Part shown: positions 2,250-32,575 of the stretch, one piece after another
Numbering within the stretch: position 1 is the first letter of the stretch
Layout of the letters: each line of letters begins with the position of its first letter
Origin: Acidobacteriota bacterium
Lineage (GTDB): Bacteria; Acidobacteriota; Blastocatellia; Pyrinomonadales; Pyrinomonadaceae
Assembly: GCA_013813755.1 (NCBI GenBank)
Contig: JACCRD010000138.1
Location: forward strand, 1 to 32,575
DNA: 32,575 nucleotides
Reading direction: 5' to 3'
Made by a program: the position numbers and the translations under genes
Notes under the pieces: generated by a model
What the model was told of the DNA's origin: nothing
Seen by the model: only the letters and a program-made list of their open reading frames with translations
The model's database searches: none

Positions 2250-3404
2250 TTATTTTGAACTATAACTATAATTTAATTTATCGTTTAAGCGAGCGATGAT
2301 TTTGGAAAGTTCGTCGAGCCGCTCCGCATCAAAATCAAGCGGCGGCTGAAGAATATTTTTCACTTCAGCAATGTTAAGCAACGACAGATCAAGTTGGGCA
2401 AGTGACAATTCTTCGTCCTGAAAAGCTTTGAGCAGGGCGCGGTAACTTTTCCGCACGGATTCGGCGCTTGAACAAATCAAAATCATATCTTCACCGGCTT
2501 GGAACGCGCGCTTGGCGGCTTCTTCAATCGCGTAATGACGCAGAATCGCCCCCATCTCCAAATCATCGGTCAGCGCGAGATGTTTGAAGCCGAGTTCTTC
2601 GCGCAGAAGTTTGGTCACTATGTTCGCGTTCAGAGAAGCGGGAATAAGTTTCCCGCCAATCTTTTCGTGCTCAAGGTCGATTTTAGGAAAACCGCCGTGG
2701 CTGACCATCACGACACGAATTCGGTCATCTTCGTCCTGACGATACAAAAAAAGTTCGATATACGGCGCGAGATCCTGTGCGATTAACTCGTCGTGCGTCA
2801 AATCAACCAGCGGCAATTCCTCGTGCGAATCAACTTCGCCCGCGCCGATGCCCGGAAAATGTTTGAGGCAAGCCAAAATTCCCTGACTTTGCAAACCGCG
2901 CAGGTAAACCTGCGAATACCCAAGAACCTCACCGGGCGAACGTCCGAAGGAACGCGAGAAAAGCCCGTTCGAAAGCAGTTCGCGTTCTTCAGACATAATT
3001 TCCATGACGGGCGCGAAATTCATATTAAAGCCGAGCCGCCGAAGAATTTCGCCGGTAATTTTACCCAGTTCGCGAGCCGCCGCTAAATCGCCGTGCTGCC
3101 GAATGACACGCGCCGAAGGCATCGGAGTGTTGATGCGCCGCAGACGGTCAACCAAGCCGCCTTCCTGATCAACACTTAAAATCGGCGGGACAGGCAAAAT
3201 TTGGCGCACGTCGTCGAGCAATTTTCGAGTTTGCGCGGCTTGTTTGATATTTCTGGCAAACAAACAGACGCCGCCCGGCGAAACTTCTTCAAGCAGTTCG
3301 CGCGTTTCGGCATCAACTTCCACTCCAGGAAGTCCGATAAAAAATAATTGTCCGATTTTTTTCTCTAAAGGCAGAGAGAGGATTTGATCCGACATAATAA
3401 ACAC
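2250..3404 (-). CDS. nagZ: Glycoside hydrolase family 3, beta-N-acetylhexosaminidase (NagZ-like)
   Basis: Motifs SVDQEGG, KHFPGIGAGEVDSHEELP and LTDDLEMGAI (catalytic Asp context) fit GH3 NagZ. Confidence 0.85.
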   Translation of the reverse strand: MFIMSDQILSLPLEKKIGQLFFIGLPGVEVDAETRELLEEVSPGGVCLFARNIKQAAQTRKLLDDVRQILPVPPILSVDQEGGLVDRLRRINTPMPSARVIRQHGDLAAARELGKITGEILRRLGFNMNFAPVMEIMSEERELLSNGLFSRSFGRSPGEVLGYSQVYLRGLQSQGILACLKHFPGIGAGEVDSHEELPLVDLTHDELIAQDLAPYIELFLYRQDEDDRIRVVMVSHGGFPKIDLEHEKIGGKLIPASLNANIVTKLLREELGFKHLALTDDLEMGAILRHYAIEEAAKRAFQAGEDMILICSSAESVRKSYRALLKAFQDEELSLAQLDLSLLNIAEVKNILQPPLDFDAERLDELSKIIARLNDKLNYSYSSK

Positions 3405-3494: not shown

Positions 3495-6179
3495 TCAAAG
3501 CAGTCGACTTTTAATATCTCTGACAAAATTCAGCAATTCCGGATACGACATTTCTTCGATATCAACTTTAGAAATTTCATTGATTATTTTTTCGTTGGAA
3601 ATACCGAAAAGCGAAAATTGAGCAGCTAGGTTATTTTTGCCCGCCTGTTGAAATGCTTTCTCATTTGAATTTTCAGATTGTTTCGCATCTCTGAAAATCG
3701 CCAATTCATATTGTTCAAGTTTTTTTAGAACTTCTCTGGCGCGGGAAATTGTGTTTGCAGGCAAACCGGCTAACTGCGCCACCGCGATGCCGTAAGATTT
3801 TGAAGCCTTTCCTTTCTGCATTTTATGTAGAAACACAATCTCATTTTCCTTTTCGGTCGCTAAAACCTGATAATTTTTCGCACCCGGCAGCTTTTCAGCC
3901 AGTTCGGTTAATTCGTGATAATGCGTGGCAAAAAGAGTTTTAGCAGAGTGTTCCGGTGAATTATGCAGATATTCGGCAACCGCCCAGGCAATCGAAAGTC
4001 CGTCAAAAGTTGAAGTTCCGCGCCCGATTTCATCCAGCAAAATCAAACTTCTGGGTGTTGCGTTATGCAGGATGGCGGCTGTTTCGGTCATTTCAACCAT
4101 AAACGTCGAACGTCCGCTCGCCAAATCATCCGATGCGCCGACGCGCGTCCAAATCCGGTCGACAATCGGAAGTTTAGCGTAGGAAGCGGGAACAAATGAG
4201 CCGATTTGAGCAAGAATCTGAATTAGAGCGATTTGCCGCAGAACAGTTGATTTTCCGCCCATATTTGGACCGGTTATTATCAAAAGACGGTCGGTTGAAT
4301 TATTCAGATAGATATCGTTGGGAATAAAATCTCTGAGTCCGAAGAATTCGACAATCGGGTGTCTGCCTTCCTTGATGTCAATTTCATCGCCTTCGTGCAA
4401 AACCGGAGCGACGTAATTTTGCCGGGCGGCGATTTCCGCCAAACTTGCCAGCGCGTCTAAAGTCGCAAGCGCTCGGGCAGTCGATTGGAGATTGATTGTT
4501 TCCTTTGCAACTTCTTTTCGAACTTCATTAAACAAAGCGATTTCCAATTCTTTAATCCGTTCTTCCGCACCCAAAACCTTTTGTTCCCACTCCCTGAGTT
4601 CGGGCGTCGAATATCTTTCGGCGTTGGTTAAAGTTTGGCGGCGTTCATAATTGTCGGGAACTCTTGAGACGTTGCCTTTTGAAATTTCGATAAAATAGCC
4701 GAAGACATTGTTAAACTTTATTTTTAAGTTTTGAATGCCTGTGCGGCGTTTTTCGCTTTCTTCAAACTGGGCGATAATTTGTTTGGCGTTATTAGAAATT
4801 GTCTTAAATTCGTCTAATTCTGCGTTGAATCCCGCGCGAATCACGCCGCCGAAAGAAATAACGCCCGGAGAATCTTCAGAAATAGCTCTAAAAATCAGAC
4901 TGGAAATTTCCGGCAATTCAAATATGTTTTCGGATAAAACCTGCAAAAGCAGAGATTTAGAATCTTTTAACTGGTCAACGACCGACGGTATCTGTGACAA
5001 AGATTCTTTGATCGCCAGTAAATCTCTGGGCGTTGTAACTCCGAGATTAAGCCGACCGACGAGCCGCTCCAAATCGGAAATTTCTTTTAGAAGTCGGCGG
5101 AGCGTGTCGCGCAAAATAGTTTCCATCAGCTCGGAAACAGCTAAAAGTCGCGTCGATATTTCGGCTTTTTTCATCGAAGGGCGTAGCAGCCAGTTGTGCA
5201 GAAGGCGACCGCCCATTCCGGTAATTGTTTTGTCAATAACGCTCAATAAAGTGTGTTTTTTATTCGCCCCACGCGACTGGACAATTTCCAGGTTACGCAG
5301 CGTCACCGCGTCGAGCATCAGATAATCATTGGCTTCCGAATAATTAATTTCCGAAATGTGTCCTGCCGAAGCTCTCTGCGTTTCGAGCGCGTACCGCAGG
5401 CAAGCGCCCGAAGCGCGGACGGATTCGTTTTTATCCTGCAAGCCAAAGCCGGACAGTTCGCGCACGTTAAATTGCTGTTTAAGAGTTTTCGCGCAATCTT
5501 CAAATTCAAAAAGCCATTCGTCAAGCGGAGTCAAGGTTGTCAGAAATTTTTTGGAATTCTGCGGGAAAATTGAGACCACGTTTTGATCGGTGTTTTTGGC
5601 GGATAAATTTTCGAAAGCATTTTCGATCAATTTTTGCAAAGACGCGGGAAATAACAATTCGCGCGGGGCGTAATTTTCTATTTCAGTAACCATTTTTGCC
5701 CACGAATCGGCACCACTAATTTGAGTTGAGAAAAACTCTCCGGTCGAAAGCTCAAGAAACGAAACGCCGAAAGTTTCGCCCGCGCCGCACACCGTTGCCA
5801 GAAAAATTGATTCCCTTGAGTCAGACAGCTGCTGGTCAATTGCCGTACCGGGCGTAATCACTCGCACAACTTCGCGCTTGACGAGTTTTACTCCTTTAGC
5901 GGCATCTTCAGTTTGTTCGCAGATTGCGACACGAAAGCCTTTTTTGACAAGTTTGGAAATATAAGCAGCAGCGGCGTGATGCGGCACTCCGCACATTGGA
6001 ACCGGGTTTTTCGAATCTTTGTGCCGGGCGGTTAAAGTAATTTCCAGTTCGCGCGCGCCGACAATCGCGTCTTCGTTGAAAAGTTCATAAAAATCGCCCA
6101 GCCGAAAAAAAAGTATTGTTCCGGGATATTGTTTTTTTATCTCAAAATACTGCCTAAGCATCGGAGTCAAATTGTCCAT
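3495..6179 (-). CDS. mutS: DNA mismatch repair protein MutS
   Basis: 894 aa. MLRQYFEIKKQYPGTILFFRLGDFYELF N-terminus, Walker A GPNMGGKSTVLRQ, LLDEIGRGTSTFDG, FATHYHELTEL. Confidence 0.98.
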   Translation of the reverse strand: MDNLTPMLRQYFEIKKQYPGTILFFRLGDFYELFNEDAIVGARELEITLTARHKDSKNPVPMCGVPHHAAAAYISKLVKKGFRVAICEQTEDAAKGVKLVKREVVRVITPGTAIDQQLSDSRESIFLATVCGAGETFGVSFLELSTGEFFSTQISGADSWAKMVTEIENYAPRELLFPASLQKLIENAFENLSAKNTDQNVVSIFPQNSKKFLTTLTPLDEWLFEFEDCAKTLKQQFNVRELSGFGLQDKNESVRASGACLRYALETQRASAGHISEINYSEANDYLMLDAVTLRNLEIVQSRGANKKHTLLSVIDKTITGMGGRLLHNWLLRPSMKKAEISTRLLAVSELMETILRDTLRRLLKEISDLERLVGRLNLGVTTPRDLLAIKESLSQIPSVVDQLKDSKSLLLQVLSENIFELPEISSLIFRAISEDSPGVISFGGVIRAGFNAELDEFKTISNNAKQIIAQFEESEKRRTGIQNLKIKFNNVFGYFIEISKGNVSRVPDNYERRQTLTNAERYSTPELREWEQKVLGAEERIKELEIALFNEVRKEVAKETINLQSTARALATLDALASLAEIAARQNYVAPVLHEGDEIDIKEGRHPIVEFFGLRDFIPNDIYLNNSTDRLLIITGPNMGGKSTVLRQIALIQILAQIGSFVPASYAKLPIVDRIWTRVGASDDLASGRSTFMVEMTETAAILHNATPRSLILLDEIGRGTSTFDGLSIAWAVAEYLHNSPEHSAKTLFATHYHELTELAEKLPGAKNYQVLATEKENEIVFLHKMQKGKASKSYGIAVAQLAGLPANTISRAREVLKKLEQYELAIFRDAKQSENSNEKAFQQAGKNNLAAQFSLFGISNEKIINEISKVDIEEMSYPELLNFVRDIKSRLL

Positions 6180-19454: not shown

Positions 19455-20468
19455 ATGGAAGTAAAAGTTTTTACAAACGGTTGTTTTGATATAATTCATC
19501 CAGGGCATATCGATTTTCTCAGACGCGCCGGAGAACTCGGAACGAATCTGATTGTTGGCATCAACAGTGATTCTTCAATTCGAGCGATCAAAGGCAAACC
19601 AAAACCATATATGAACGAAATTGACCGCAAGGCAATTTTGCAGGCAATCAAATTTGTCGATCAAGTTTATATTTTTAATGAAACCACGCCCGAATCGCTG
19701 ATCAAAAAAATTAATCCTGATGTTTTGGTAAAGGGCGGCGATTGGACTGTAGATGAAATTGTCGGTTCCGATTTTGTTTTAAAAAAGGGCGGAAAGGTTT
19801 TATCACTTGCTCTCCTGGAAAATTATTCGTCAAGTTCGATTGCCGAGAAAATAAAAAACAGTGAAGTAAAAAATTTGCCTCAGATTCAGGAAAAAACCGG
19901 CAGCCAGGTAATTGTAAATGCTCTGAAGACACACATACAAATATTTGAACAATTATTAAAAAGTGAAATTTTGATAATTGAAGAGTGCGCTGAACTTATT
20001 TATCGGACATTTCTCAATGGAAATAAAGTTTTAATTTGCGGCAACGGTGGAAGCGCCGCCGATGCACAGCATATCGCCGCTGAATTCGTCGGCAGGTATG
20101 AAGTTGAAAGAAAGGCTTTGCCGGTAATCGCTCTAACGACTGATACTTCTGCACTCACCGCACTCGCCAATGACTACAGCTTTGAAAAAATTTTTTCCAG
20201 GCAAGTTGAAGCTTTAGGCGCAAAAAATGATTTGTTAATTGCCATCAGCACCAGCGGTAATTCCTCAAATGTTAGTGCCGCGGTGATGACCGCCAGACAA
20301 ATTGGCTGTAAAACCATTGGTTTAACTGGCTCTAAAGGTAAAAAACTAGCGTCGCTCTGCGATACAAGTATTTTAGTGCCGGCAATACTGACAGCCAGAA
20401 TCCAGGAAGCGCACATTGCGATCGGACATATCTGGTGTGAAATAATCGACCTTAAATTCCAAAAGTAA
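19455..20468 (+). CDS. Fusion: HldE C-terminal-type nucleotidyltransferase plus GmhA-type phosphoheptose isomerase (SIS)
   Basis: aa 1-135 VFTNGCFDIIHPGHIDFLRRAGELG...DVLVKGGDW (RfaE domain II). aa 155-337 LICGNGGSAADAQHIAAEFVGRY...LIAISTSGNSSNV...TARIQEAHIAIGHIWCEIID (GmhA). One uninterrupted frame. Confidence 0.9.
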   Translation: MEVKVFTNGCFDIIHPGHIDFLRRAGELGTNLIVGINSDSSIRAIKGKPKPYMNEIDRKAILQAIKFVDQVYIFNETTPESLIKKINPDVLVKGGDWTVDEIVGSDFVLKKGGKVLSLALLENYSSSSIAEKIKNSEVKNLPQIQEKTGSQVIVNALKTHIQIFEQLLKSEILIIEECAELIYRTFLNGNKVLICGNGGSAADAQHIAAEFVGRYEVERKALPVIALTTDTSALTALANDYSFEKIFSRQVEALGAKNDLLIAISTSGNSSNVSAAVMTARQIGCKTIGLTGSKGKKLASLCDTSILVPAILTARIQEAHIAIGHIWCEIIDLKFQK

Positions 20469-20507
20469 ATTTTTTCTTTTAAAGTTATAAATCAAAACGT
20501 TTTTAGT

Positions 20508-21464
20508 ATGGAAATTACGAAAGATTTCAAAAATATAAATGTTTTGATCGTTGGAGACGTGATGCTTGACCGCTATTGGTGGGGAAGCGTCGAACGGATT
20601 TCTCCAGAAGCTCCGGTTCCGATATTGAATTTAAACAACACCACGCTCGCAGCCGGCGGCGCGGCAAATGTTGCCGCGAATGTCGATGGTTTAGGAGCTA
20701 AACCATTTCTGATAGGGATTGTGGGCACAGATCCAGAATCAGAATTATTCTGTGAATTATTGAACTCAAAAAAAATTTCGACTGATTATTTATATCGGCA
20801 TCCTGACCGACCGACAACAATCAAGACAAGAATTTTAGGGCATAATCAACAGATTGTGAGAGTTGACCAGGAACAGACAAACAATATTTCGGAATTTGAA
20901 GAAGAAGATATCTGGAACTTAATTTTTCAAATTATAAACACCGTTGATGTAATCATTGTGTCTGATTATGGAAAAGGGTTAGTAACAAAATCAATTTTAA
21001 TGCGTCTGATAAATTTTGGGAATGACAATGACAAAATTGTATTAATTGATCCAAAGGGGAAAGATTATACAAAATATTCCGGAGCGACATTATTGACTCC
21101 AAATCAATTTGAATTGATCCAAGCCTGCAATTTAGATAGCTGTAAACAAACGACAATTGAGGAAGCCGGGAGTAATCTGCTCGGAAAATTATCTCTAAAT
21201 AATCTTCTCGTCACACAGGGCGGGGACGGAATGACATTATTTCGACAGAATCAATTGCCCGAACATCTTCCGGCGTTGGCGCGCAATGTATATGATGTGA
21301 CGGGGGCGGGCGATACGGTTATCGCAACTTTGGGAGTAGCGTTGGCAAGCGGTTTTGACACGCTCGCCGCGGCAAAATTGGCGAATGTCGCCGCCGGTTT
21401 GATTGTTGAGCAGATCGGAACTACCGCGATAACTCTGGAAATGCTGAAGTCAGAATTAAATTAG
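20508..21464 (+). CDS. D-glycero-beta-D-manno-heptose-7-phosphate kinase (HldE N-terminal type, PfkB family), stand-alone
   Basis: VLIVGDVMLDRYWWGSVERISPEAPVPIL, AAGGAANVAANV, VYDVTGAGDTVIATLG. Confidence 0.9.
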   Translation: MEITKDFKNINVLIVGDVMLDRYWWGSVERISPEAPVPILNLNNTTLAAGGAANVAANVDGLGAKPFLIGIVGTDPESELFCELLNSKKISTDYLYRHPDRPTTIKTRILGHNQQIVRVDQEQTNNISEFEEEDIWNLIFQIINTVDVIIVSDYGKGLVTKSILMRLINFGNDNDKIVLIDPKGKDYTKYSGATLLTPNQFELIQACNLDSCKQTTIEEAGSNLLGKLSLNNLLVTQGGDGMTLFRQNQLPEHLPALARNVYDVTGAGDTVIATLGVALASGFDTLAAAKLANVAAGLIVEQIGTTAITLEMLKSELN

Positions 21465-21498
21465 AAATTCGCGAATAAATTGTATTTATCCATTCAAA

Positions 21499-22515
21499 AT
21501 GCCAACGAAAATACTTTATATCGAACGTAAACTAGAAAACGGTGTCAGTATCGAAAAGGTTTTCAGGCAAATTGCCAAAAATTTGAATCAGAAAGAATTT
21601 TATAATTCGTTCCAGCAGTTGCCTTTTAGAAACAATACCTTTGGTACATTGAAAAATTTATTTTTTTTTAAATCAAAAAAAAGCGACATTTTTCATATAA
21701 CGGGTCACGTTCATTACATCGCTTTAATTTTACCCTCCAATAAAACAGTTTTAACCATTCACGATTTAGGAATTCTCAAGATCCGAAAAGGACTTCGGCG
21801 ATACGTTTTAAAAAAAATATTATTTGATTTTCCAATCCGTCGGCTTAAATTTATTACGACGATTTCCGAGACGGTTAAAAAAGAAATAGTTTTTCATACC
21901 AAATGTGATGAAAAAAAAATACGTGTGATAGAGAATCCTCTGCAGGATCATTTTAATTCAGCGTCCAAAAAAATATTTAATGCGGAATATCCGACTATTC
22001 TGCAGATCGGCACAACTCCAAATAAAAATTTAGAAAATGTGATAAAAGCTTTGAGCGGGATTCCATGTCGTTTGAAAATAATCGGAAAATTAGAAGATAA
22101 TATTCTGAGCGAATTAAAAACGCAAAAGATTGATTTTGTGAACGTTTTTAATTTGAATAATGAGGAAATTAAAACCGAATACCAAAACGCGGACCTCGTC
22201 ACATTTTGCTCTTTGTATGAAGGCTTTGGTTTGCCGATTATCGAAGCGCAGGCGATGCGAACTCCGGTGGTAACAAGTAATATAAGCCCCTTAAAAGAGG
22301 TCGCGGGCGGCGGCGCCGTTTTGGTTGATCCAAATAGTTACTTGAGTTTACAGAAGGGAATCTTAAGTTTAATCGAAAATAAAATTCTTCGTGAAAAGTT
22401 AATTGAAGTTGGACTGAAAAATATTAGACGTTTTGAACCAAAGAAGATTTCTCATAATTACGAAAATTTATACCGGGAAATTAACGATAGTAATTCTCGA
22501 AACAAGTTGTTTTGA
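21499..22515 (+). CDS. Glycosyltransferase family 4
   Basis: TVLTIHDLGIL, ADLVTFCSLYEGFGLPIIEAQAMRTPVVTSNISPLKEVAGGGAVLVDP. Confidence 0.87.
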   Translation: MPTKILYIERKLENGVSIEKVFRQIAKNLNQKEFYNSFQQLPFRNNTFGTLKNLFFFKSKKSDIFHITGHVHYIALILPSNKTVLTIHDLGILKIRKGLRRYVLKKILFDFPIRRLKFITTISETVKKEIVFHTKCDEKKIRVIENPLQDHFNSASKKIFNAEYPTILQIGTTPNKNLENVIKALSGIPCRLKIIGKLEDNILSELKTQKIDFVNVFNLNNEEIKTEYQNADLVTFCSLYEGFGLPIIEAQAMRTPVVTSNISPLKEVAGGGAVLVDPNSYLSLQKGILSLIENKILREKLIEVGLKNIRRFEPKKISHNYENLYREINDSNSRNKLF

Positions 22516-22521
22516 AATAAA

Positions 22522-23709
22522 ATGTCAAAAAATATAGTTGAAAATAGCAGAAAGAAAATCTTAATTATCTGCAATTATTATTTGCCCGGTTTTAAAAGCG
22601 GTGGAAGTCTCCGAACAATTGTTAATATGATTGAACGCTTGGGAGACGAATTCGATTTTAAAATTATAACGTTTGATCACGATGGTGACAAGATTAGATA
22701 TAAAAATATTGAAGTTAATAAATGGAATCAACGTGGAAAGGCGCAAGTGCTTTATTTGTCACAAAATACCGTTAATATTTCGAAATTACGTGAACTTATT
22801 ATAGAGACTCGGGCAGATTCGATCTACATTAACAGTGTTTTCTCGAAGTTGTCATTTTTCGTATTGGTTCTAAAAAAATTAAATCTGATTCCAGAAATAA
22901 AAATAGTTTTAGCCCCCGAAGGTGAATTATCTGTCGGCGCTTTGCAGTTAAAGGCGAAAAAGAAAAATCTATTTTTGAAGGCAGCACGTCTTACGGGTTT
23001 GTTTGATCAATTAATCTGGAAAACTACATCCGAATTAGAAAAAAAAGAAGTAGAAAATTTGACCTCAAAATATGAAAAGATTTTCATCGCTCCGAATATG
23101 CCTGCCGGAATTTTACTTGAAAATTATAAGCAGGATGCCAAGCCGCCAAAAGATAAAGAAAATACTCGGATGGTTTTTCTTTCCAGGTATATGCGCAAAA
23201 AAAACTTAAAGTGGTTTATAGAATTGCTCACAGACATTAAACAGCCTTTGACCCTCGACATTTACGGACCAATAGAAGACAAAAATTATTGGCAGGAAAG
23301 CTTAGCAATTATTCAACGTTTACCCTCAAACATAAAAGTGAATTATGCAGGCTCGATTTCGCACAATGAGGTGGTTTCAACTTTATTTAAATATCATTAT
23401 TTTATCTTGCCGACTTTAGGTGAGAATTTCGGGCACGTTTTTATTGAAGCCCTCAGTGCGGGATGTCCAATTATAATTAGCGATCGAACGCCCTGGCTAA
23501 ATTTATATGAGAAAAGTGTTGGCTGGGATTTACCTCTCGAAGAACCTGATAAATGGCTTGAAGTTATTAGAGAATGCATTAATGCAGATCAGGTAAAATA
23601 TAACAATATATCAAGTAAAGCGCGAAGTTTCGCCGTTGAATGGCTTTCAGATAAAAAAGTTAAAGAAGCAACTTATGAGGTGTTGAGTTACAGTGTATGC
23701 GCTACATAA
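22522..23709 (+). CDS. Glycosyltransferase family 4
   Basis: LPGFKSGGSLRTIVNMIERL, MVFLSRYMRKKNLKWFIELL, HYFILPTLGENFGHVFIEALSAGCPIIISDRTPW. Confidence 0.85.
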   Translation: MSKNIVENSRKKILIICNYYLPGFKSGGSLRTIVNMIERLGDEFDFKIITFDHDGDKIRYKNIEVNKWNQRGKAQVLYLSQNTVNISKLRELIIETRADSIYINSVFSKLSFFVLVLKKLNLIPEIKIVLAPEGELSVGALQLKAKKKNLFLKAARLTGLFDQLIWKTTSELEKKEVENLTSKYEKIFIAPNMPAGILLENYKQDAKPPKDKENTRMVFLSRYMRKKNLKWFIELLTDIKQPLTLDIYGPIEDKNYWQESLAIIQRLPSNIKVNYAGSISHNEVVSTLFKYHYFILPTLGENFGHVFIEALSAGCPIIISDRTPWLNLYEKSVGWDLPLEEPDKWLEVIRECINADQVKYNNISSKARSFAVEWLSDKKVKEATYEVLSYSVCAT

Positions 23710-23804
23710 CACAACTAATCTTAAACGATACAAAATAGACGAGTTGAGTATATAAATAATTATTGCAATGTTGAAAGTCCAACGGTTAATAAAATACATT
23801 AATT

Positions 23805-24677
23805 ATGAAAATTTTAGTTTTTGGTGGGGGAGGAATGCTTGGACACAAATTAGTCCAAAAATTACAAGTGGATTTTGATGTGTGGACAAGTTTTAGAGAC
23901 AGCTATAAAAAATATGAAAATCTAAAATTTTTCAATCCAGAGAAAATTGTTAATCGAGTAAATGTATTAGATTTTGAATCGATACAAAAAACTATTAGAG
24001 AAGTTAACCCGGAAATTTTGATCAACGCCGTCGGAATAATTAAACAACTTCCATCTTCAAAAGATGTCATAAAGACTCTTTTAACAAATTCAATTTTTCC
24101 ACACCAACTGGCAGAAATTTGTGCCGAAGAAAATCGTTATTTAATAAATATCAGCACCGATTGTGTTTTTGATGGTGCGAAAGGGAATTATAAAGAAGAG
24201 GATATTTCTAACGCATCTGATTTATACGGAAGAAGCAAAAGCTTAGGCGAGGTAAATAACCAAAGGTGTCTTACAATCAGGACTTCAATTATCGGTAGAG
24301 AACTTTTTACAAAGAATAGTTTGGTCGAGTGGTTTTTAAGCAATGAAGAAGTTCGAATAAAAGGATTTGTAAATGCTATCTATTCCGGTTTCCCAACAAT
24401 AATACTGGCTGAAATTATTTCAGAATTATTAAGGCATCAGGATTTTTTGGAAGGTTTATATCACGTTTCGAGCGAACCGATTAATAAATACGAATTGTTG
24501 AAATTATTAAAAAAAGCTTTTCAAATCAAGGTTGAGATTGAACCTTTTGAAGAATTTAAGATTGATCGAAGTCTAAACTCCGATAAATTTAGAAAACAAA
24601 CTAATTTCGCGCCGCTCAGTTGGGAGGAGATGATTACAATAATGGCGAATGATAAATTTCCATATCAAAACAAATGA
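23805..24677 (+). CDS. RmlD-like SDR reductase (dTDP-4-dehydrorhamnose reductase family), likely acting on a UDP-HexNAc intermediate
   Basis: ILVFGGGGMLGHKLVQKL, ISTDCVFDGAKGNYKEED, DLYGRSKSLGE. Overlaps the next gene by ATGA at 24674-24677. Confidence 0.82.
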   Translation: MKILVFGGGGMLGHKLVQKLQVDFDVWTSFRDSYKKYENLKFFNPEKIVNRVNVLDFESIQKTIREVNPEILINAVGIIKQLPSSKDVIKTLLTNSIFPHQLAEICAEENRYLINISTDCVFDGAKGNYKEEDISNASDLYGRSKSLGEVNNQRCLTIRTSIIGRELFTKNSLVEWFLSNEEVRIKGFVNAIYSGFPTIILAEIISELLRHQDFLEGLYHVSSEPINKYELLKLLKKAFQIKVEIEPFEEFKIDRSLNSDKFRKQTNFAPLSWEEMITIMANDKFPYQNK

Positions 24678-25723
24678 ATAATTTAGAAGGAAAAAGAATT
24701 TTAGTTACCGGCGGAACCGGTTCGCTCGGACAAACTTTAGTTCGGAGATTGCTCAGAGGAGAAATGGGTAAGCCTTCGCGGGTCACTGTTTTTTCGCGCG
24801 ATGAAGCCAAACAGCATTATATGCGTCTGGACTTTATGCATCGAAAAACCGCCACCGACGATGTAATTTATGAAAATTCGCAGGATTTGTTAAATTTTCG
24901 GATTGGCGACGTGCGCGATTACTCGGCAATACTTTCGGCACTGCGCGAGTGTGATGTGGTTTTTCACGCCGCCGCGCTCAAGCAAGTACCTTCGTGTGAA
25001 TATTTTCCGTATGAAGCGGTTTTAACAAATATTGTCGGGGCGCAGAATGTTGCGCGCGCGATTCGTGAAAACAATCTCCCGATCAAAAAAGTAATCGGAA
25101 TATCCACAGATAAAGCGTGTAAACCGATTAATGTGATGGGAATGACCAAGGCTCTGCAGGAGAGGGTTTTAATTGAAGCGAATAGAGATTGCCCGGATAC
25201 AAATTTTATGTGCGTGAGATACGGCAACGTGATTGCTTCACGCGGTTCGATTGTTCCACTGTTTGTCGAACAGGTAAGAAAAAATCAGACATTAACCGTA
25301 ACCTTAGAAGAGATGACCAGATTTTTGTTAAGTCTCGATAAAGCGGTCGACACGGTTTTTGCCGCTATTGACAATGGAATGCGGGGCGAAACATATGTGC
25401 CTCAAGTATCTTCCGCGAAAATGATTGATGTGGCGAATGCTCTGATGGGTAAAAAAAAGCTGCCGATTGTATTTACAGGCATTCGTCCGGGAGAGAAGGT
25501 TCACGAAATTATGGTTTCCGAAGAAGAATGTTTTCGAACGATCGAACGGGGCGAATATTATGTTATCTTGCCAGTTTTGCCTGAGCTTCGACAGGAAAAG
25601 GATTTTTCTCCGGCACTGAGTTCTGAATATTCTTCGAAAGACAAAAATATTTCTATCGAAAAATTAAAATTATTACTCGGTCAGGCTGATTCGGAAATCA
25701 GGCGATTTATCGAAAAAGGGTGA
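24674..25723 (+). CDS. UDP-N-acetylglucosamine 4,6-dehydratase/5-epimerase (CapE/WbjB/FnlA/QnlA type)
   Basis: ILVTGGTGSLGQTLVRRLLRG...VTVFSRDEAKQHYMRLDF...VFHAAALKQVPSCEYFPYEAVLTNIVGAQNV...GISTDKACKPINVMGMTKALQE. Confidence 0.9.
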   Translation: MNNLEGKRILVTGGTGSLGQTLVRRLLRGEMGKPSRVTVFSRDEAKQHYMRLDFMHRKTATDDVIYENSQDLLNFRIGDVRDYSAILSALRECDVVFHAAALKQVPSCEYFPYEAVLTNIVGAQNVARAIRENNLPIKKVIGISTDKACKPINVMGMTKALQERVLIEANRDCPDTNFMCVRYGNVIASRGSIVPLFVEQVRKNQTLTVTLEEMTRFLLSLDKAVDTVFAAIDNGMRGETYVPQVSSAKMIDVANALMGKKKLPIVFTGIRPGEKVHEIMVSEEECFRTIERGEYYVILPVLPELRQEKDFSPALSSEYSSKDKNISIEKLKLLLGQADSEIRRFIEKG

Positions 25724-25737
25724 AAAATTATAAAATT

Positions 25738-26838
25738 ATGAAAGTAATGACAATTTTCGGGACACGTCCAGAAATTATCAGATTAAGTCCGATTTTAAAA
25801 ATTCTCGACCGGCACAGCGAACATATTACAGTTCATACCGGGCAAAATTATCACGAAAGCCTGAGCGATATTTTTATAAGAGATTTGGAGGTGCGGACAC
25901 CGGATATTCATCTGGGAATAAAATCGAGCGGAATCGGAGATCAAATCGGACAGATTTTGAGCAAAACCGATGAAATTTTAGAAGAACATAAACCGGATAA
26001 AATCTTAATTCTGGGCGATACCAACAGCGCCTTATCAGCGATTATCGCGGCGCGGCGCGGCATTCCCGTTTTTCATATGGAAGCGGGGAATCGGTGTTTT
26101 GACAGACGTGTTCCGGAAGAAGTTAATCGCCGTATCATCGATCATTCAAGCACTATTCTGCTTCCATACACCGAGCGAAGTAAGGAGAATTTAATTGCCG
26201 AAGGAATTGAACGAGAAAGAATATATGTTACGGGAAATCCGATCAAAGAAGTTTTGGATAACTTTTCACAAAAAATAGAGGAAAGCGATTCGCTTGAAAA
26301 ATTTGATGTTAAACCCTCGGAATATTTTTTAGTGACGCTGCACAGAGCTGAAAACGTTGATTTGCCGGAGCGCCTGAAAATGATTTTTGAAGCCTTTTCA
26401 CAGTTGGTTGAAAAATTTGGTAAAACAATGCTGATCAGCGTCCATCCGCGAACGGCTGAAAAACTTAAAAAATTCAAAATCGAAGTTGCGTCTGATAAAA
26501 TCAAATTACTTGAACCGCTCGGTTTCTTTGATTTTGTTAAATTGGAAAAAAACGCGATGGCGGTTTTGTCCGACAGCGGCACTGTCCAGGAAGAATGTGC
26601 GATTTTCGGCGTCCCGAATGTGACTTTGCGCGATGTCACCGAACGCCCGGAAACAATCGAATGCGGAAGCAATATTCTGAGCGGGGCTGGTTTCGGTTCA
26701 ATTTTGCTCTCGGTTGAACTTGCTATCGCGCAAATGCCGGACTGGACTCCGCCCATCGAATATCTGAATCCTAATGTTTCACGAACGGTCAGTAAAATTA
26801 TTTTGGGTTACACGTCCGTCAGAAAACATACGAGTTAA
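25738..26838 (+). CDS. UDP-N-acetylglucosamine 2-epimerase family (WecB-like; FnlC/WbjD/QnlC role)
   Basis: MKVMTIFGTRPEIIRLSPIL, HTGQNYHESLS, VTLHRAENVD, SDSGTVQEECAIFGVPNVTLRDVTERPE. ATG at 25738 preferred over GTG at 25720. Confidence 0.9.
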   Translation: MKVMTIFGTRPEIIRLSPILKILDRHSEHITVHTGQNYHESLSDIFIRDLEVRTPDIHLGIKSSGIGDQIGQILSKTDEILEEHKPDKILILGDTNSALSAIIAARRGIPVFHMEAGNRCFDRRVPEEVNRRIIDHSSTILLPYTERSKENLIAEGIERERIYVTGNPIKEVLDNFSQKIEESDSLEKFDVKPSEYFLVTLHRAENVDLPERLKMIFEAFSQLVEKFGKTMLISVHPRTAEKLKKFKIEVASDKIKLLEPLGFFDFVKLEKNAMAVLSDSGTVQEECAIFGVPNVTLRDVTERPETIECGSNILSGAGFGSILLSVELAIAQMPDWTPPIEYLNPNVSRTVSKIILGYTSVRKHTS

Positions 26839-26878
26839 ATAGAGAATCTTTTAGAAAAATTTTTTTATTGTTTCTGAA

Positions 26879-28150
26879 ATGGATAGAGAATTAAATTTTA
26901 GGAAAAACAACGTCGAATCCGATTCACAGAATAAAAAAACTCTCTGGGTGATCACCGAGCTTTATTATCCGGAGAACAATCAAACCGGCTATTATATGAC
27001 GGGCATCGCCGAGGGTCTGACCAAAAATTTTAATGTCAGAGTAATTTGCGGGCAGCCGAATTACGCTGCCAGAGGAACATTCGCTCCAAAAAGAGAAAAT
27101 CATAAGAACGTGGAAATTTTTCGTGTCTGGAGCACAACTCTTAATAAAGATATAATTTTTCTTCGATTGATAAATATGTTGACCATCGGATTTTCTATCT
27201 TTTTTAAAATGGTGGCTAAAATCAAAAAAGATGAGGAAATGCTAGTCGTTTCCGCTCCGCCGACTCTACCGTTTAGTGCCGCTCTTGCCGCAAAATTGCG
27301 GGGGGCAAAATATTCATTAATTATTCAGGATAAATATCCGGAAACGCTAATCGCCGTCGGCAAAGTAAATCCGCAATCTTTTTTTGTCAGAATTCTTAAT
27401 AGTTTCAACATATGGCTTTATCAGGGAGCAAAAAAAATTATAGTGGTCGGACGTGATATGCAGGCGCTGGTTATTTCTCAAATAAAACAGTCCTCCGATG
27501 GGAAATTTCCCCCGGTGGAGGTTATACAAAACTGGGCGTCGCTTGAGGAAATTGAGCCGATGCCGAGAAATAACAACCAACTTTTGCGACAATTAAAGAT
27601 TGCCGATAAATTCGTTTTTTTGTATGCCGGAAATATGGGGCATCCGCAGGATATAGAAAGTATTGTCGGGTGTGCCGAAAAGCTTAAAATGGACGAAAGA
27701 TTTCACTTTCTTTTTATCGGCTCGGGCGTTAAGAGAAAATGGCTTGAAAGAGAAGTATCGGAAAAAAATCTATCAAATATAACTGTTTTGCCGCCGCGTT
27801 CGAGGAGCGAACAAAATATTTTTCTGAACGCCTGTGATGTCGGTCTTGTTCCATTGGTCAAAAAAATGTGGGGGGTGGCGATGCCGTCCAGAACGTATAA
27901 TTTAATGGCTGCCGGCAAACCGATTTTAGCCTTAACCGAAAATAATTCTGAAGTCGCGAAGGTAATCGAAGATGAAAAGGTCGGCTGGTATGTTTCCCCG
28001 AATGATCCGGAAGCGCTCTGTAAAATCATTTTTGAAATTTTTGAGAATCGCGCGACACTGCCCGAGATGGGGCAGCGTGCTCGCCTTTCGGCATTAGAAA
28101 AATATTCGGTCGAGGCGGCGGTGGAGAAATATAATAATTTCTTAAACTAA
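26879..28150 (+). CDS. Glycosyltransferase family 4, WbuB-like (amino-deoxyhexose transferase)
   Basis: LWVITELYYPENNQTGYYMTGIAEGL...VRVICGQPNYAARGTF, FLYAGNMGHPQDIESIVGCAEKL, DVGLVPL. Follows the FnlABC-like trio as in E. coli-type loci. Confidence 0.85.
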   Translation: MDRELNFRKNNVESDSQNKKTLWVITELYYPENNQTGYYMTGIAEGLTKNFNVRVICGQPNYAARGTFAPKRENHKNVEIFRVWSTTLNKDIIFLRLINMLTIGFSIFFKMVAKIKKDEEMLVVSAPPTLPFSAALAAKLRGAKYSLIIQDKYPETLIAVGKVNPQSFFVRILNSFNIWLYQGAKKIIVVGRDMQALVISQIKQSSDGKFPPVEVIQNWASLEEIEPMPRNNNQLLRQLKIADKFVFLYAGNMGHPQDIESIVGCAEKLKMDERFHFLFIGSGVKRKWLEREVSEKNLSNITVLPPRSRSEQNIFLNACDVGLVPLVKKMWGVAMPSRTYNLMAAGKPILALTENNSEVAKVIEDEKVGWYVSPNDPEALCKIIFEIFENRATLPEMGQRARLSALEKYSVEAAVEKYNNFLN

Positions 28151-28194
28151 TGCGTCCGATAACTTTCTAATCAAAGTGTTGCTCAATTTACAAA

Positions 28195-29220
28195 ATGAGA
28201 GTTTTAATTACAGGTGCAAGCGGTTTTATCGGGAAGGAAATTGTTAAAGAGTGTCAGAACTCAGGTTTTAAAACTGTTCAACTTGTCAGCCATCGTAGCC
28301 AAAAGAACGAGTGCCAAAAAAACGAAAATTATTCTATGATTATGGCGATTGATATTACAGATTATAAAAATTTTCGCCAATTGGAAAAAACTGAAAATGT
28401 CGATGTATTGATACACGCGGCTGGATTGGCGCATCAATTTGGAGACACAAAAAAAGAAGAATTCGATCTGGTAAATGTGCGGGGCACAAAAAATATTTCT
28501 GAATTGGCAGTCCATCTAAAAATTAAACAATTTATTTTAATTAGTTCGACTGCGGTTTATGGCGCCTTTGAAAACATTAACGGCAAAGAAAAAAATAAAA
28601 ATCAAGGCATATTTGACGAAAATTCACCGACCAACCCGCAGACGTCCTATGCGAAAAGTAAGTTGGAAGCAGAAAAAATTTGTACGGAGATTTGCGAAAA
28701 AAATAAAATACCGTTGACCATTCTGCGTCTCTCGCCGGTTATCGGCGAAGGTAATCGGGGGAATGTCGAGCGTCTGGTTAAAGCTATCGAGCGAAAAAGA
28801 TTTGTATGGATTGGAAACGGAGAAAATCTTAAATCTCTGATTTACAAAAACGATGTGGCGGGCGCGTGCGTCAGGATAATCGAGGAGAAAACAGGCGCGA
28901 CCGAAATTTTCAATTTATCCGCCGAGCCTTTGCCTTTAAAGAATTTGGTCGGCGAAATTTCCAGAAGGCTGCACCGAAAAATCCCCGGATTTTCCATTCC
29001 AGCAATTTTTCCTAAAATGATCTTTGGCGTTAACAAAAAAACTCTAAGAAGTAAAAAAATTTGTAAATTTGAGCAGACATTTGAAAAGTGGCTGGCGGTA
29101 GATGTCTACCAGAGCGAAAAAATTAAGCATAAATATAATTTTACCCCAAAATTCTCGATCGCCGAGGGTATCCGAAAACAAGTAGACTGGTATAAATTGA
29201 ATAAAGACCAAAATTTATAG
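28195..29220 (+). CDS. NAD-dependent epimerase/dehydratase (UDP-glucose 4-epimerase family, possibly WbpV-like 4-reductase)
   Basis: VLITGASGFIGKEIV, FILISSTAVYG, TSYAKSKLEAEKI. Next to a WecA/WbpL-type transferase. Confidence 0.8.
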   Translation: MRVLITGASGFIGKEIVKECQNSGFKTVQLVSHRSQKNECQKNENYSMIMAIDITDYKNFRQLEKTENVDVLIHAAGLAHQFGDTKKEEFDLVNVRGTKNISELAVHLKIKQFILISSTAVYGAFENINGKEKNKNQGIFDENSPTNPQTSYAKSKLEAEKICTEICEKNKIPLTILRLSPVIGEGNRGNVERLVKAIERKRFVWIGNGENLKSLIYKNDVAGACVRIIEEKTGATEIFNLSAEPLPLKNLVGEISRRLHRKIPGFSIPAIFPKMIFGVNKKTLRSKKICKFEQTFEKWLAVDVYQSEKIKHKYNFTPKFSIAEGIRKQVDWYKLNKDQNL

Positions 29221-29241
29221 ATGTGCCCAAAAAATTGAATT

Positions 29242-30276
29242 TTGTTTATTATAATTATATATTTCATTATATTCGCCGTCGCTTTTTTAGGGATAAAACT
29301 ATTTCTTCGCCTCAATAAAAAGTGGAATATTCTGGATGTCCCGAATGAAAGAAGTTCGCATACCAGACCGACTCCGCGCGGCGGCGGGTTAGTAATCGTT
29401 CTGGTTAGTTTGCTCGCTTACACAATTTATACAAATTTTTTCACACGGGAATTTTCATGGGCATATTTTGGCGGCGCGATTTTGATTGTTTCAATTAGCT
29501 GGCTGGATGATTTATATTCAGTTTCATCGCTTCTGAGATTCATCGTGCATTCGATCGCGGCCGGTTTAATCGTTTTGTATTTGGGAGAATCTCAAAGTAT
29601 ATACATTCCTTTTTATGGGCTTTTAAAGTCAAATTTTTGTCCGCAGATAATCATCTTCTTATGGATCGTCTGGCTCACCAACGCATATAATTTTATGGAC
29701 GGCATTGACGCTCTCGCAGGGATGCAGGCAGTTACCGCCGGACTCGGATGGTTAATGGTCGGAAAAATTCTCGGACAGGAAACGGCAGGTTTTTATGGCG
29801 GCGTGATCGCGTTTTCAAGTCTGGGGTTTTTAATCTTTAACCGCTACCCGGCAAAAATTTTTATGGGTGATGTGGGAAGCGCGTTTTTAGGCTATACCTT
29901 TGCGGTATTTCCTTTTCTTTTCTTCAGAGAGACTGTAATAGATACGGCGATTTTGCCGGTGGTTGCAATTCTTCTGGTCTGGCTTTTTGTGTTTGATACG
30001 GTTTTGACGTTAACTCGGAGACTTTTCAAACGAGAAAAGATTTGGCAGGCTCACCGCAGTCATATATACCAGAGGCTTGTGGCGGCAGGTGTCTCGCAAG
30101 TAAAGGTAACCGGTTTATATGTATTAATTTCGTTAACAATTATCATTTTGATTTTTATAAATTTAAGAATAAATAATTTCTGGAGCGCAACGATAATAAT
30201 TATTACTATTGAATCTTTGGGACTTTTTATTTTTTCCAGGATTAAAGAAAGAAGTAAAACTCCCGAATTGAATTAA
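29242..30276 (+). CDS. Undecaprenyl-phosphate sugar-1-phosphate transferase (MraY/WecA/WbpL-like)
   Basis: NVPNERSSHTRPTPRGGG-type motif (DVPNERSSHTRPTPRGGGLVI), WLDDLYSVS, NAYNFMDGIDALAG, FMGDVGSAFLGY, HRSHIYQRLV. Polytopic. TTG start at 29242 uncertain. Confidence 0.92.
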   Translation: MFIIIIYFIIFAVAFLGIKLFLRLNKKWNILDVPNERSSHTRPTPRGGGLVIVLVSLLAYTIYTNFFTREFSWAYFGGAILIVSISWLDDLYSVSSLLRFIVHSIAAGLIVLYLGESQSIYIPFYGLLKSNFCPQIIIFLWIVWLTNAYNFMDGIDALAGMQAVTAGLGWLMVGKILGQETAGFYGGVIAFSSLGFLIFNRYPAKIFMGDVGSAFLGYTFAVFPFLFFRETVIDTAILPVVAILLVWLFVFDTVLTLTRRLFKREKIWQAHRSHIYQRLVAAGVSQVKVTGLYVLISLTIIILIFINLRINNFWSATIIIITIESLGLFIFSRIKERSKTPELN

Positions 30277-30311: not shown

Positions 30312-31142
30312 ATGACAAAAGCAATCCAACAAATTTTTATCCGAGTTTATGGCGTTACAATTTGTATCAAAACTAATAAAAAAGCCCTTTTAAGTGAATT
30401 AAAAAATGAAATTATTAAAACTATTCCGGTAAAATTTGAATTTATTGACCAGCAAAATGCGGAACACATTATTTATATTGAATCAACAAAAAATAAAATG
30501 TATGAATTTTATTTAAATAATGAAAATAAAGGACTGTTTAGTAAGTTAGATGTGATCGAAATGTTCAAAAGTATGTTACGACTTACCATAGCGGAATTTG
30601 CAGTCTCAAAAGTTTTTTTACATGCCGGGGTGGTTGCCTGGAAAGGGAGAGCGATAGTTATACCAGCTAATAGTTTTAAGGGTAAAACAACTTTGGTTGC
30701 AGAATTAGTCAAAAAAGGAGCGTTATATTATTCTGATGAATATACGGTATTAAACAAAAAAGGCTTTGTTCATTCATTTCCAAAAAAGCTTTCTTTAAGA
30801 AGTCCGACAGACAAAAATTTTCAGGCGGATTATTCTGTTGAATCCTTGGGTGGTCGCGCGGGCAAAAAAATTATACCTGTCGGAATGATTTTGTTAACTG
30901 AATTTGATTCAAATTCGACCGCAAAAAAATGGAACCCTAAGCTTTTAAGTGCCGGACAAGGAATCCTGGAAATTATTCCTCACACAATTTCTATCAGATA
31001 TGATACAAAATTTGCATTAAAGGTATTGAATAAAGTCGCAAGTCGTGCCATAATCGCTAAGAGTAAAAGAGGTGAAGCAAAAGAATTTGTTGATTTGCTG
31101 ATAAATTTTTTTGAAAATAATGTAGAATACACCCGAAATTAA
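30312..31142 (+). CDS. HPr kinase/phosphorylase-like ATPase (HprK-related)
   Basis: HAGVVAWKGRAIVIPANSFKGKTTLVAELVKKGALYYSDEYTVLN: P-loop AxxxxGKT and a DE-type acidic motif in HprK-like context. Adjacent to a PqqD-domain gene. Confidence 0.75.
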   Translation: MTKAIQQIFIRVYGVTICIKTNKKALLSELKNEIIKTIPVKFEFIDQQNAEHIIYIESTKNKMYEFYLNNENKGLFSKLDVIEMFKSMLRLTIAEFAVSKVFLHAGVVAWKGRAIVIPANSFKGKTTLVAELVKKGALYYSDEYTVLNKKGFVHSFPKKLSLRSPTDKNFQADYSVESLGGRAGKKIIPVGMILLTEFDSNSTAKKWNPKLLSAGQGILEIIPHTISIRYDTKFALKVLNKVASRAIIAKSKRGEAKEFVDLLINFFENNVEYTRN

Positions 31143-31188
31143 AACTGATTAAATAATTTATCATTAAATATTGAGGAGAAAAATAAAG

Positions 31189-31671
31189 ATGTCACAAAAT
31201 CCAATCGCCCGAAAAAACGGGCTGGTTTTACAGGAAATGCCGGATGAGCTTTTAGTTTATGATCTGGATACAAATAAAGCCCATTGTCTAAATCAAACAT
31301 CAGCTTTTGTATGGAAAGCGTGTAACGGTAAAAATACCGTCAGCGATATTTCCAGTTTATATGGAAATTACGCCGGTGATTCCGTCCCGGAAGATTTGGT
31401 TTGGCTGGCGATTGACCAGTTAAGTCAAAATAATCTTTTAGAAAACAAAATAGCTTCAAAATTGAATGGACAAACCAGACGTGAATTAATCAAGAAAATT
31501 GGTTTGGCTTCGGTTATTGCTTTGCCGCTCGTGGCATCATTGGCTGCTCCAAGTTCAGTATTAGCGGTTGCTAGTTGTCCAACAACAATGTGTGAGGGTA
31601 CTGCACAAGGCGGGGTATGTCAAAATTGTGCATGTAATGGTGCAGGTGCTTGTACTCCGACAGGAAATTAG
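31189..31671 (+). CDS. PqqD-domain protein with internal Tat-like segment and 6-Cys C-terminal tail (candidate RRE-fused RiPP precursor)
   Basis: aa 1-86 PqqD-like (NGLVLQEMPDELLVYDLDTNKAHCLNQTSAFVWKACNGKNTVSDIS...LAIDQLSQNNLLE). aa 96-128 TRRELIKKIGLASVIALPLVASLAAPSSVLAVA. aa 129-160 SCPTTMCEGTAQGGVCQNCACNGAGACTPTGN. ATG at 31189 has GAGGAG upstream; the TTG at 31171 in the ORF track is less likely. Confidence 0.85.
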   Translation: MSQNPIARKNGLVLQEMPDELLVYDLDTNKAHCLNQTSAFVWKACNGKNTVSDISSLYGNYAGDSVPEDLVWLAIDQLSQNNLLENKIASKLNGQTRRELIKKIGLASVIALPLVASLAAPSSVLAVASCPTTMCEGTAQGGVCQNCACNGAGACTPTGN

Positions 31672-31740
31672 ATAGGCACTGAAAAAACTTGTGTGTCTAT
31701 CATAATCGAACTCGTACATTTGTGTGCATTTGATTTAAAA

Positions 31741-31787
31741 AAAAGGAAAAAGCAGCAAAATTTTATATTTTGCTGCTTTTTCCTTTT
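31741..31787 (+). terminator. Strong hairpin after the PqqD-tail gene (terminator/attenuator candidate)
   Basis: Perfect 20-bp inverted repeat AAAAGGAAAAAGCAGCAAAA (31741-31760) / TTTTGCTGCTTTTTCCTTTT (31768-31787), 7-nt loop, extendable by 1 bp. Confidence 0.7.
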
Positions 31788-31796
31788 TGGCAAGTT

Positions 31797-32575
31797 ATGA
31801 AAGAGGATTGTGACAAAGATATTTTGAGATGGAATAAACTACAGAGGCGTTTGGCTGAAATTAATATTAAAAAGGCTTTTATTCGTTTACGCGCTATCCA
31901 AATAGAACCGATTTTAATAAAAGGATGGGCTATTAGCAGGTCATATCCGGCAAAGCATTTCAGAGCGTCTGTAGATGTCGATTTAGGTGTGAACCCTCTC
32001 CAATACCAAAAAGCGAAGGATATTTTAGAGAATGATGCCGACAACTTTATGTTTGTTGATTTACACGAAGGATTCAGGCATCTGGATAATGTTTCCTGGC
32101 AAAATTTGTTTGAAAATTCAAGACTTGTGGAAATAGAAGAGACCCCGATCAGGATTCTAAGACCCGAGGATCATTTAAGGGTTTTGTGTACCCATTGGCT
32201 TAACGACGGCGGCGCAAATAAGGAAAGGCTTTGGGACATATTCTATGCAGTGGAAAATCGTTCGGACGATTTTGAATGGGATCGTTTTTTAGAAATTTCC
32301 GGTCCGAAAAGAAGAAAATGGTTTGTTTGCGCGCTTGGTTTGGCTCACAGATACCTCGGACTCGACTTAAAAGACACTCCGATTGAGAAAGAGGCGCTGG
32401 CAATACCGAAATGGATAATTAAAGCAGTCGAAAAGGAGTGGGGAAGTGATGTCAAATTAAAACCGCTCCAAAGTTGTCTGCAGAATAAAAAAGAATTGTT
32501 TGAACAAATAAAAAAAAGAATTCCTCCAAATCCGATCCAGGCGACAATTGAAATGGAGGGGGATTTTGACAATAA
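31797..32575 (+). CDS. Nucleotidyltransferase family protein (PF14907-like), truncated by the window end
   Basis: Open frame from ATG 31797 to the window edge, no stop: MKEDCDKDILRWNKLQRRLAEINIKKAFIRLRAIQIEPILIKGWAISRSYPAKHFRASVDVDLGVNP...LRPEDHLRVLCTHWLNDGG. The LIKGWAISRSYP...R..VDVDLGV pattern fits this family. Confidence 0.75.
   Translation, partial: MKEDCDKDILRWNKLQRRLAEINIKKAFIRLRAIQIEPILIKGWAISRSYPAKHFRASVDVDLGVNPLQYQKAKDILENDADNFMFVDLHEGFRHLDNVSWQNLFENSRLVEIEETPIRILRPEDHLRVLCTHWLNDGGANKERLWDIFYAVENRSDDFEWDRFLEISGPKRRKWFVCALGLAHRYLGLDLKDTPIEKEALAIPKWIIKAVEKEWGSDVKLKPLQSCLQNKKELFEQIKKRIPPNPIQATIEMEGDFDN

Follow-up and report, generated by a model that had tools for sequence, protein, structure and literature searches.

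A candidate peptide-export module with a PqqD-fused, cysteine-rich precursor beside an HprK-like kinase and a nucleotidyltransferase-like gene in Pyrinomonadaceae

The phosphorylated lasso peptide clusters, such as those of paeninodin (PadeK), B. sediminis (bsfK-B1-N) and pseudomycoidin (psmK/psmN), combine an HprK-like kinase with a PqqD-type RRE and a nucleotidyltransferase-like gene. The lasso kinase BsfK phosphorylates Ser3 of the core peptide, and its activity is strongly raised by the RRE protein BsfB1 (PMC10368454). In the case of pseudomycoidin, phosphorylation by the kinase is followed by addition of a hexose by the nucleotidyltransferase-like protein (PMC8498205, PMC9266682). The HPr-rel-A system (TIGR04352 HprK_rel_A and TIGR04353 PqqD_rel_X) is similar in placing an HprK-related kinase beside a PqqD-family protein, and bufferins (PMC12452194) and DUF2282 precursors (PMC12710340) provide examples of modified peptides exported via a classical signal peptide. 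A search that covered part of the literature found no paper in which PqqD was paired with HprK, HPr-rel-A, twin-arginine or cysteine-rich.

The DNA analysed here (the window) is a stretch of 32,575 nucleotides from a member of the Pyrinomonadaceae. It represents an entire contig (G000:C208) of a 2.0 Mb MAG that is 72% complete, and it ends within a nucleotidyltransferase gene. A WecA/WbpL-type priming transferase is encoded at positions 29242-30276 (PF00953, 111.9 bits). Downstream of it, genes for an HprK-like protein, a PqqD-tail protein and a PF14907 nucleotidyltransferase-like protein follow consecutively on the plus strand with short gaps, an arrangement described in the original prediction and borne out by gene calls and profile searches. 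The PqqD-tail gene itself is likely the precursor gene, judging from its sequence, a feature which that prediction had missed.

The three genes do occur together as a unit. Across 119 genomes from the order (Acidobacteriota, Blastocatellia/Pyrinomonadaceae), the PqqD-tail and HprK-like genes were both present in 82, discordant in 2 + 3 and both absent in 32 (Fisher p 3e-23), while the PqqD-tail and nucleotidyltransferase genes were both present in 79, discordant in 5 + 4 and both absent in 31 (p 4e-19); these p values are indicative only, because the genomes are related. All three genes were found in 77 of the 119 genomes and none in 30, which makes the co-occurrence almost perfect. Complete or two-gene versions of the trio were also present in other families of the class and here and there in further classes, and one such grouping, on a plasmid of Gemmatirosa (Gemmatimonadota), includes a PqqD-tail homolog. 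On that plasmid (NZ_CP007129, locus L214, 9333-10253), the gene directly 3' of PqqD-tail is MauE-like. In methylamine dehydrogenase, the subunit that MauE serves is the small, disulfide-rich one, and the MauE family is tied to disulfide maturation.

The first gene of the trio (30312-31142, plus strand) encodes a putative HprK-like peptide kinase of 276 aa. Its top NCBIfam match was TIGR04352 HprK_rel_A (46 bits, E 3.6e-12), under the cut-off of 200; a Pfam search gave no match, and the protein fell below the cut-off of every curated kinase family searched. A sequence search of the PDB with the kinase, PqqD and transferase proteins gave no match, and a fold search was used for the kinase and PqqD proteins. 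The AlphaFold model of the kinase (pLDDT 91) matched the folds of HPr kinase and PEP carboxykinase. The core region (30621-30740, plus strand) contains a HAG motif, the P-loop PANSFKGKTT and an SDE motif, and H104, G124, K125, T/S126, D142 and E143 (D in one) are conserved in 15 kinase sequences. The spacing of 15/21/38/39 among H104, A/G119, K125, T/S126, D142 and E143 agrees with that of BsfK, whose catalytic residues are H148, G163, K169, S170, D186 and D187 (PMC10368454). The window kinase deviates in having E in place of the second acidic D and Ala in place of the first P-loop Gly. At two other loci (L048 in G003 and L066 in G002), the PqqD-tail and transferase genes are separated by a second HprK-like gene of more divergent sequence.

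The third gene (31797-32575, plus strand) is open at the contig end and matches PF14907 with 62.3 bits, above the gathering score of 31.2. The residues KG...R...DxD and others are near-invariant in 22 homologs, and PsmN of pseudomycoidin is presumably a member of the same family. A strong hairpin with a T-run (31740-31788) separates this gene from the PqqD-tail gene; its predicted energy is -32.3 kcal/mol, with a z-score of -7.5 against shuffles that refers to the window hairpin only. Hairpins of unrelated sequence were found in this gap at all 14 of the 14 loci examined. In one genome (G007), a genome search detected no transferase gene, which suggests that the transferase step is dispensable.

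The PqqD-tail protein (31189-31671, plus strand; 160 aa) is the proposed precursor and appears to consist of an RRE domain, a Tat-like signal and a Cys-rich peptide. Its match to PF05402 scores 27.7 bits and so exceeds the gathering score (23.4). The PqqD/RRE domain spans residues 1-92 (31189-31464, plus strand) and was modelled with pLDDT >90 over most of its length; its best PDB match in Foldseek was the leader-bound lasso B1 protein TbiB1 (5v1u/5v1v, TMt 0.73-0.74). The tail was modelled with pLDDT under 60. A scan of genome contigs with a 10-row alignment as the query found relatives, the named ones being Acidobacteriota from the Blastocatellia/Pyrinomonadaceae. TIGR04353 matched 14 of 28 PqqD-tail members weakly and the window protein not at all, the best model being TIGR04248. 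Compared to HPr-rel-A, the trio gives weak profile matches to both of its models, far under the curated cut-offs.

The RRE domain is followed by a Tat-like signal, TRRELIKKIGLASVIALPLVASLAAPSSVLA (31474-31566, plus strand), with an AxA-type end (VLA). The RR pair is present in 133 of 133 aligned homologs, in which the signal follows the pattern S/T/N-R-R-x-h-h-K-K, a K/R-rich part, about 18 apolar residues and A-x-A. Two prolines in the signal are found in 96% of homologs, and A precedes the cut in 84%. The family shows the Tat-substrate motif (S/T-RR-x-hydrophobic-hydrophobic-K, an apolar stretch and AxA), and TatC is encoded in the same genome. The signal begins about 95 residues into the protein, an unusual position for a signal peptide, and an uncleaved internal signal would yield a membrane-anchored protein. 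The sequence VASC was also considered as a lipoprotein site, and this reading was rejected: relatives have no lipobox before the first Cys, whereas AxA is conserved.

The tail beyond the predicted cut, VASCPTTMCEGTAQGGVCQNCACNGAGACTPTGN (31567-31668, plus strand), contains 6 Cys, and Ser129 would be at mature position 3. Across homologs the tail has a median of 52 residues, consists of 14% Cys and is near charge-free. It is hypervariable: among orthologs linked to polysaccharide genes, the tails share 27% pairwise identity and the remainder 62-68%; with the shared Cys left out, the figures are 17% for the tails and 61-68% for the PqqD and signal parts. The number of Cys is even in 131 of 133 homologs (range 0-22, mostly 6-18), in 46 of 48 clusters after clustering at 60% identity and in 59 of 59 tails from the genomes with expanded families, while S, T, G, A, P, N, V, L and Q, counted as controls, were all about 50:50 odd and even. 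One of the two odd-Cys tails ends oddly and may reflect a frame error, and one of the two tails with no Cys is truncated by a contig end. We know of no simple cause of such parity other than disulfide pairing of all Cys after export to an oxidising place. The parity therefore argues for an exported mini-protein with all Cys in disulfide bonds, joined in cis to an RRE domain, and the predicted export and disulfide bonding of the tail are well supported by sequence.

The start of the tail shows a further regularity. In 127 of 132 tails, a Ser or Thr lies among the first 5 residues beyond the predicted cut, most often directly before the first Cys, and S occupies this place in 66 proteins, compared to 6% of other Cys. 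Knottin spacing (C-C-CC-C-C) fits at least 16 of the 133 tails, and some tails gave weak Pfam matches to Toxin_12, Omega-toxin and Conotoxin. The window tail does not fit this spacing, and a knottin assignment for the whole family was rejected as just a subset of tails fits. Compared to knottin/ICK mini-proteins, the tails are bacterial and belong to an RRE-fused precursor, and homology is not claimed. Inhibitor-cystine-knot spacing was seen in several families of the class (L064, L070, L074, L194, L196, L198 and L199; for example, CFPSGQPCTSSAECCSGICSSNVC). Some relatives outside the family carry the RRE and the signal with a tail that is short or Cys-free; in L122, L211 and L212, PqqD and an RR signal are followed by short or Pro-rich Cys-free tails, L122 being titled a Betaproteobacteria MAG.

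Two genomes (G007 and G033) carry at least 31 PqqD-tail copies each, mostly distant from the kinase and transferase genes, and one kinase each. RiPP systems are known to combine one enzyme set with many hypervariable precursors. The tails of these paralogs (L055-L063, L124-L139 and L144-L160) contain 6-22 Cys, always an even number. In G033, several paralogs adjoin genes that, by eye, encode a 947-aa Ser/Thr protein-kinase-like protein and an ECF-type sigma factor. Genes of peptidase family C25 (gingipain-type) were noted by trio loci (L199, 1391-4789, and two other neighbours) and may represent a processing protease.

The original prediction held that the trio could be the left half of a cluster for a RiPP that continues beyond the window with a B2 protease, an asparagine-synthetase-like gene and a transporter. 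Kinase, PqqD and nucleotidyltransferase genes do serve as lasso tailoring genes elsewhere, and the resemblance of these parts to some lasso clusters stands. The lasso cluster itself does not. The C-terminus of the nucleotidyltransferase was placed at the right end of a 6264-bp contig of the same genome (G000:C31, minus strand), where about 26 terminal codons (IRDIFFRLPKSIKSV) are similar to the last residues of the transferase in the closest relative (IPDIYFRLLPSLKKF). Read inwards past this end, the contig carries tsaB, rimI, DUF465-like, PQQ-repeat, ssb, accA and dnaE genes, named by reading their translations. The rightward extension past 32575 thus leads into a contig without B2, cyclase or exporter, and relatives share the gene order: sugar genes, WecA-like, HprK-like, PqqD-tail, (transferase), tsaB and rimI follow one another in at least 16 of 40 relatives examined. 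No Asn-synthetase-like cyclase or ABC exporter adjoins the trio on the downstream contig or in syntenic relatives. PF13471, the family of lasso B2 proteases, has no member in the genome or its genus (0 of 9) and is missing from 62 of 84 genomes carrying a PqqD-tail gene, and no B2 or Asn-synthase family is among the 25 commonest families near distant trio loci. Given the contig continuation and the absence of PF13471, a RiPP cluster on the right, whether lasso or of another kind, was rejected, and a lasso-type half-cluster cut by the contig end is extremely improbable.

Compared to the lasso set, the trio shares the kinase residues, and the BsfA target, Ser3, is close to the core start, as is Ser129 at predicted mature position 3. 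The lasso set uses a separate RRE, whereas here it is part of the proposed precursor; the trio also differs in having no B2, cyclase or ABC exporter and in having a Tat-like signal and a Cys-rich core of even Cys count. In the bufferin and DUF2282 systems, MNIO-type enzymes and Sec signals are employed, and the RRE is located outside the precursor.

These comparisons point to a self-contained peptide-export module, in which an RRE-fused precursor would be modified by the kinase and transferase, exported and cut, a reading with about an even chance of being correct. In the precursor, a leader-binding RRE (PqqD) domain would be joined in cis to a Tat-type signal and to a Cys-rich peptide that is hypervariable and fully disulfide-bonded. 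The RRE may recruit the HprK-like kinase, which may phosphorylate a Ser/Thr near the mature N-terminus (Ser129 in the window protein), and the PF14907 protein may then add a sugar or nucleotide onto the phosphate, as in the pseudomycoidin K/N pair. Export would probably proceed via Tat, with AxA cleavage and oxidation of the tail outside the cytoplasm. Support for the model is sequence-based and comes from the domain order, the signal, the AxA site, Cys parity, co-occurrence and the kinase residues. That the PqqD-tail protein is an exported precursor is probable from these features; modification by the kinase/transferase pair falls slightly short of an even chance. A broader proposal, a peptide class with the RRE inside the precursor and one kinase/transferase pair acting in trans to phosphoglycosylate up to dozens of disulfide-bonded, exported, hypervariable precursors per genome, is tentative and leans towards the doubtful side.

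The setting of the trio is relevant to an alternative. Window positions 19455-30276 form a polysaccharide locus with HldE-like and CapE/CapG-like genes and the priming transferase, and its order is kept across genera. The genes upstream of the trio encode CapE-like and CapG-like amino-sugar enzymes, an RmlD-like reductase and glycosyltransferases, a set that would fit UDP-L-QuiNAc/FucNAc synthesis. At the left window end, a glycoside-hydrolase-3-like gene (2250-3404) and a MutS-like gene (3495-6179), both judged by eye, lie on the minus strand. The original prediction had offered a link to exopolysaccharide as its second option, and this was confirmed as a matter of location: the trio terminates a polysaccharide locus in most relatives. 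Genes for Wzy, Wzz, Poly_export and SLBB proteins are among the neighbours of distant trio loci. These locations, together with the weak matches to HPr-rel-A models, would suit a membrane-anchored regulator, in which the signal stays uncleaved, PqqD acts in the cytoplasm as an adaptor of the two enzymes, the Cys-rich tail serves outside as a sensor or anchor, and the trio controls or modifies polysaccharide synthesis as an HPr-rel-A-like system. Such a regulator is unlikely, since the AxA site is conserved, dozens of paralogs lie apart from polysaccharide genes, and the tails, which keep just Cys parity, are too variable for a single sensor or anchor. A connection between peptide and polysaccharide at the locus is possible. 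Cys parity and the signal would suffice to explain the tail if these were plain secreted disulfide-rich peptides, in which PqqD does no more than hold the precursor, Tat signal included, until export, and the enzymes act on another target. The orphan paralogs without an adjacent kinase or transferase and the genome without a detectable transferase fit this explanation, which nevertheless appears quite improbable in view of the near-perfect co-occurrence of the three genes, their adjacency in different families and in a second phylum, and the normal function of RREs in bringing substrates to enzymes.

If the peptide-export reading is true, the RRE, which known systems encode on its own or within an enzyme, would have moved into the precursor, upstream of a Tat-type signal, and PF05402 followed by RR...AxA...even Cys would offer a handle for genome mining. 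What the nucleotidyltransferase does in kinase-containing clusters has yet to be settled for lasso peptides (PMC9266682), and its function in such peptide clusters would become testable here, beside polysaccharide genes. The trio would also define a large family of exported Cys-rich peptides in Acidobacteriota and Gemmatimonadota, in which secreted peptides have been little studied.
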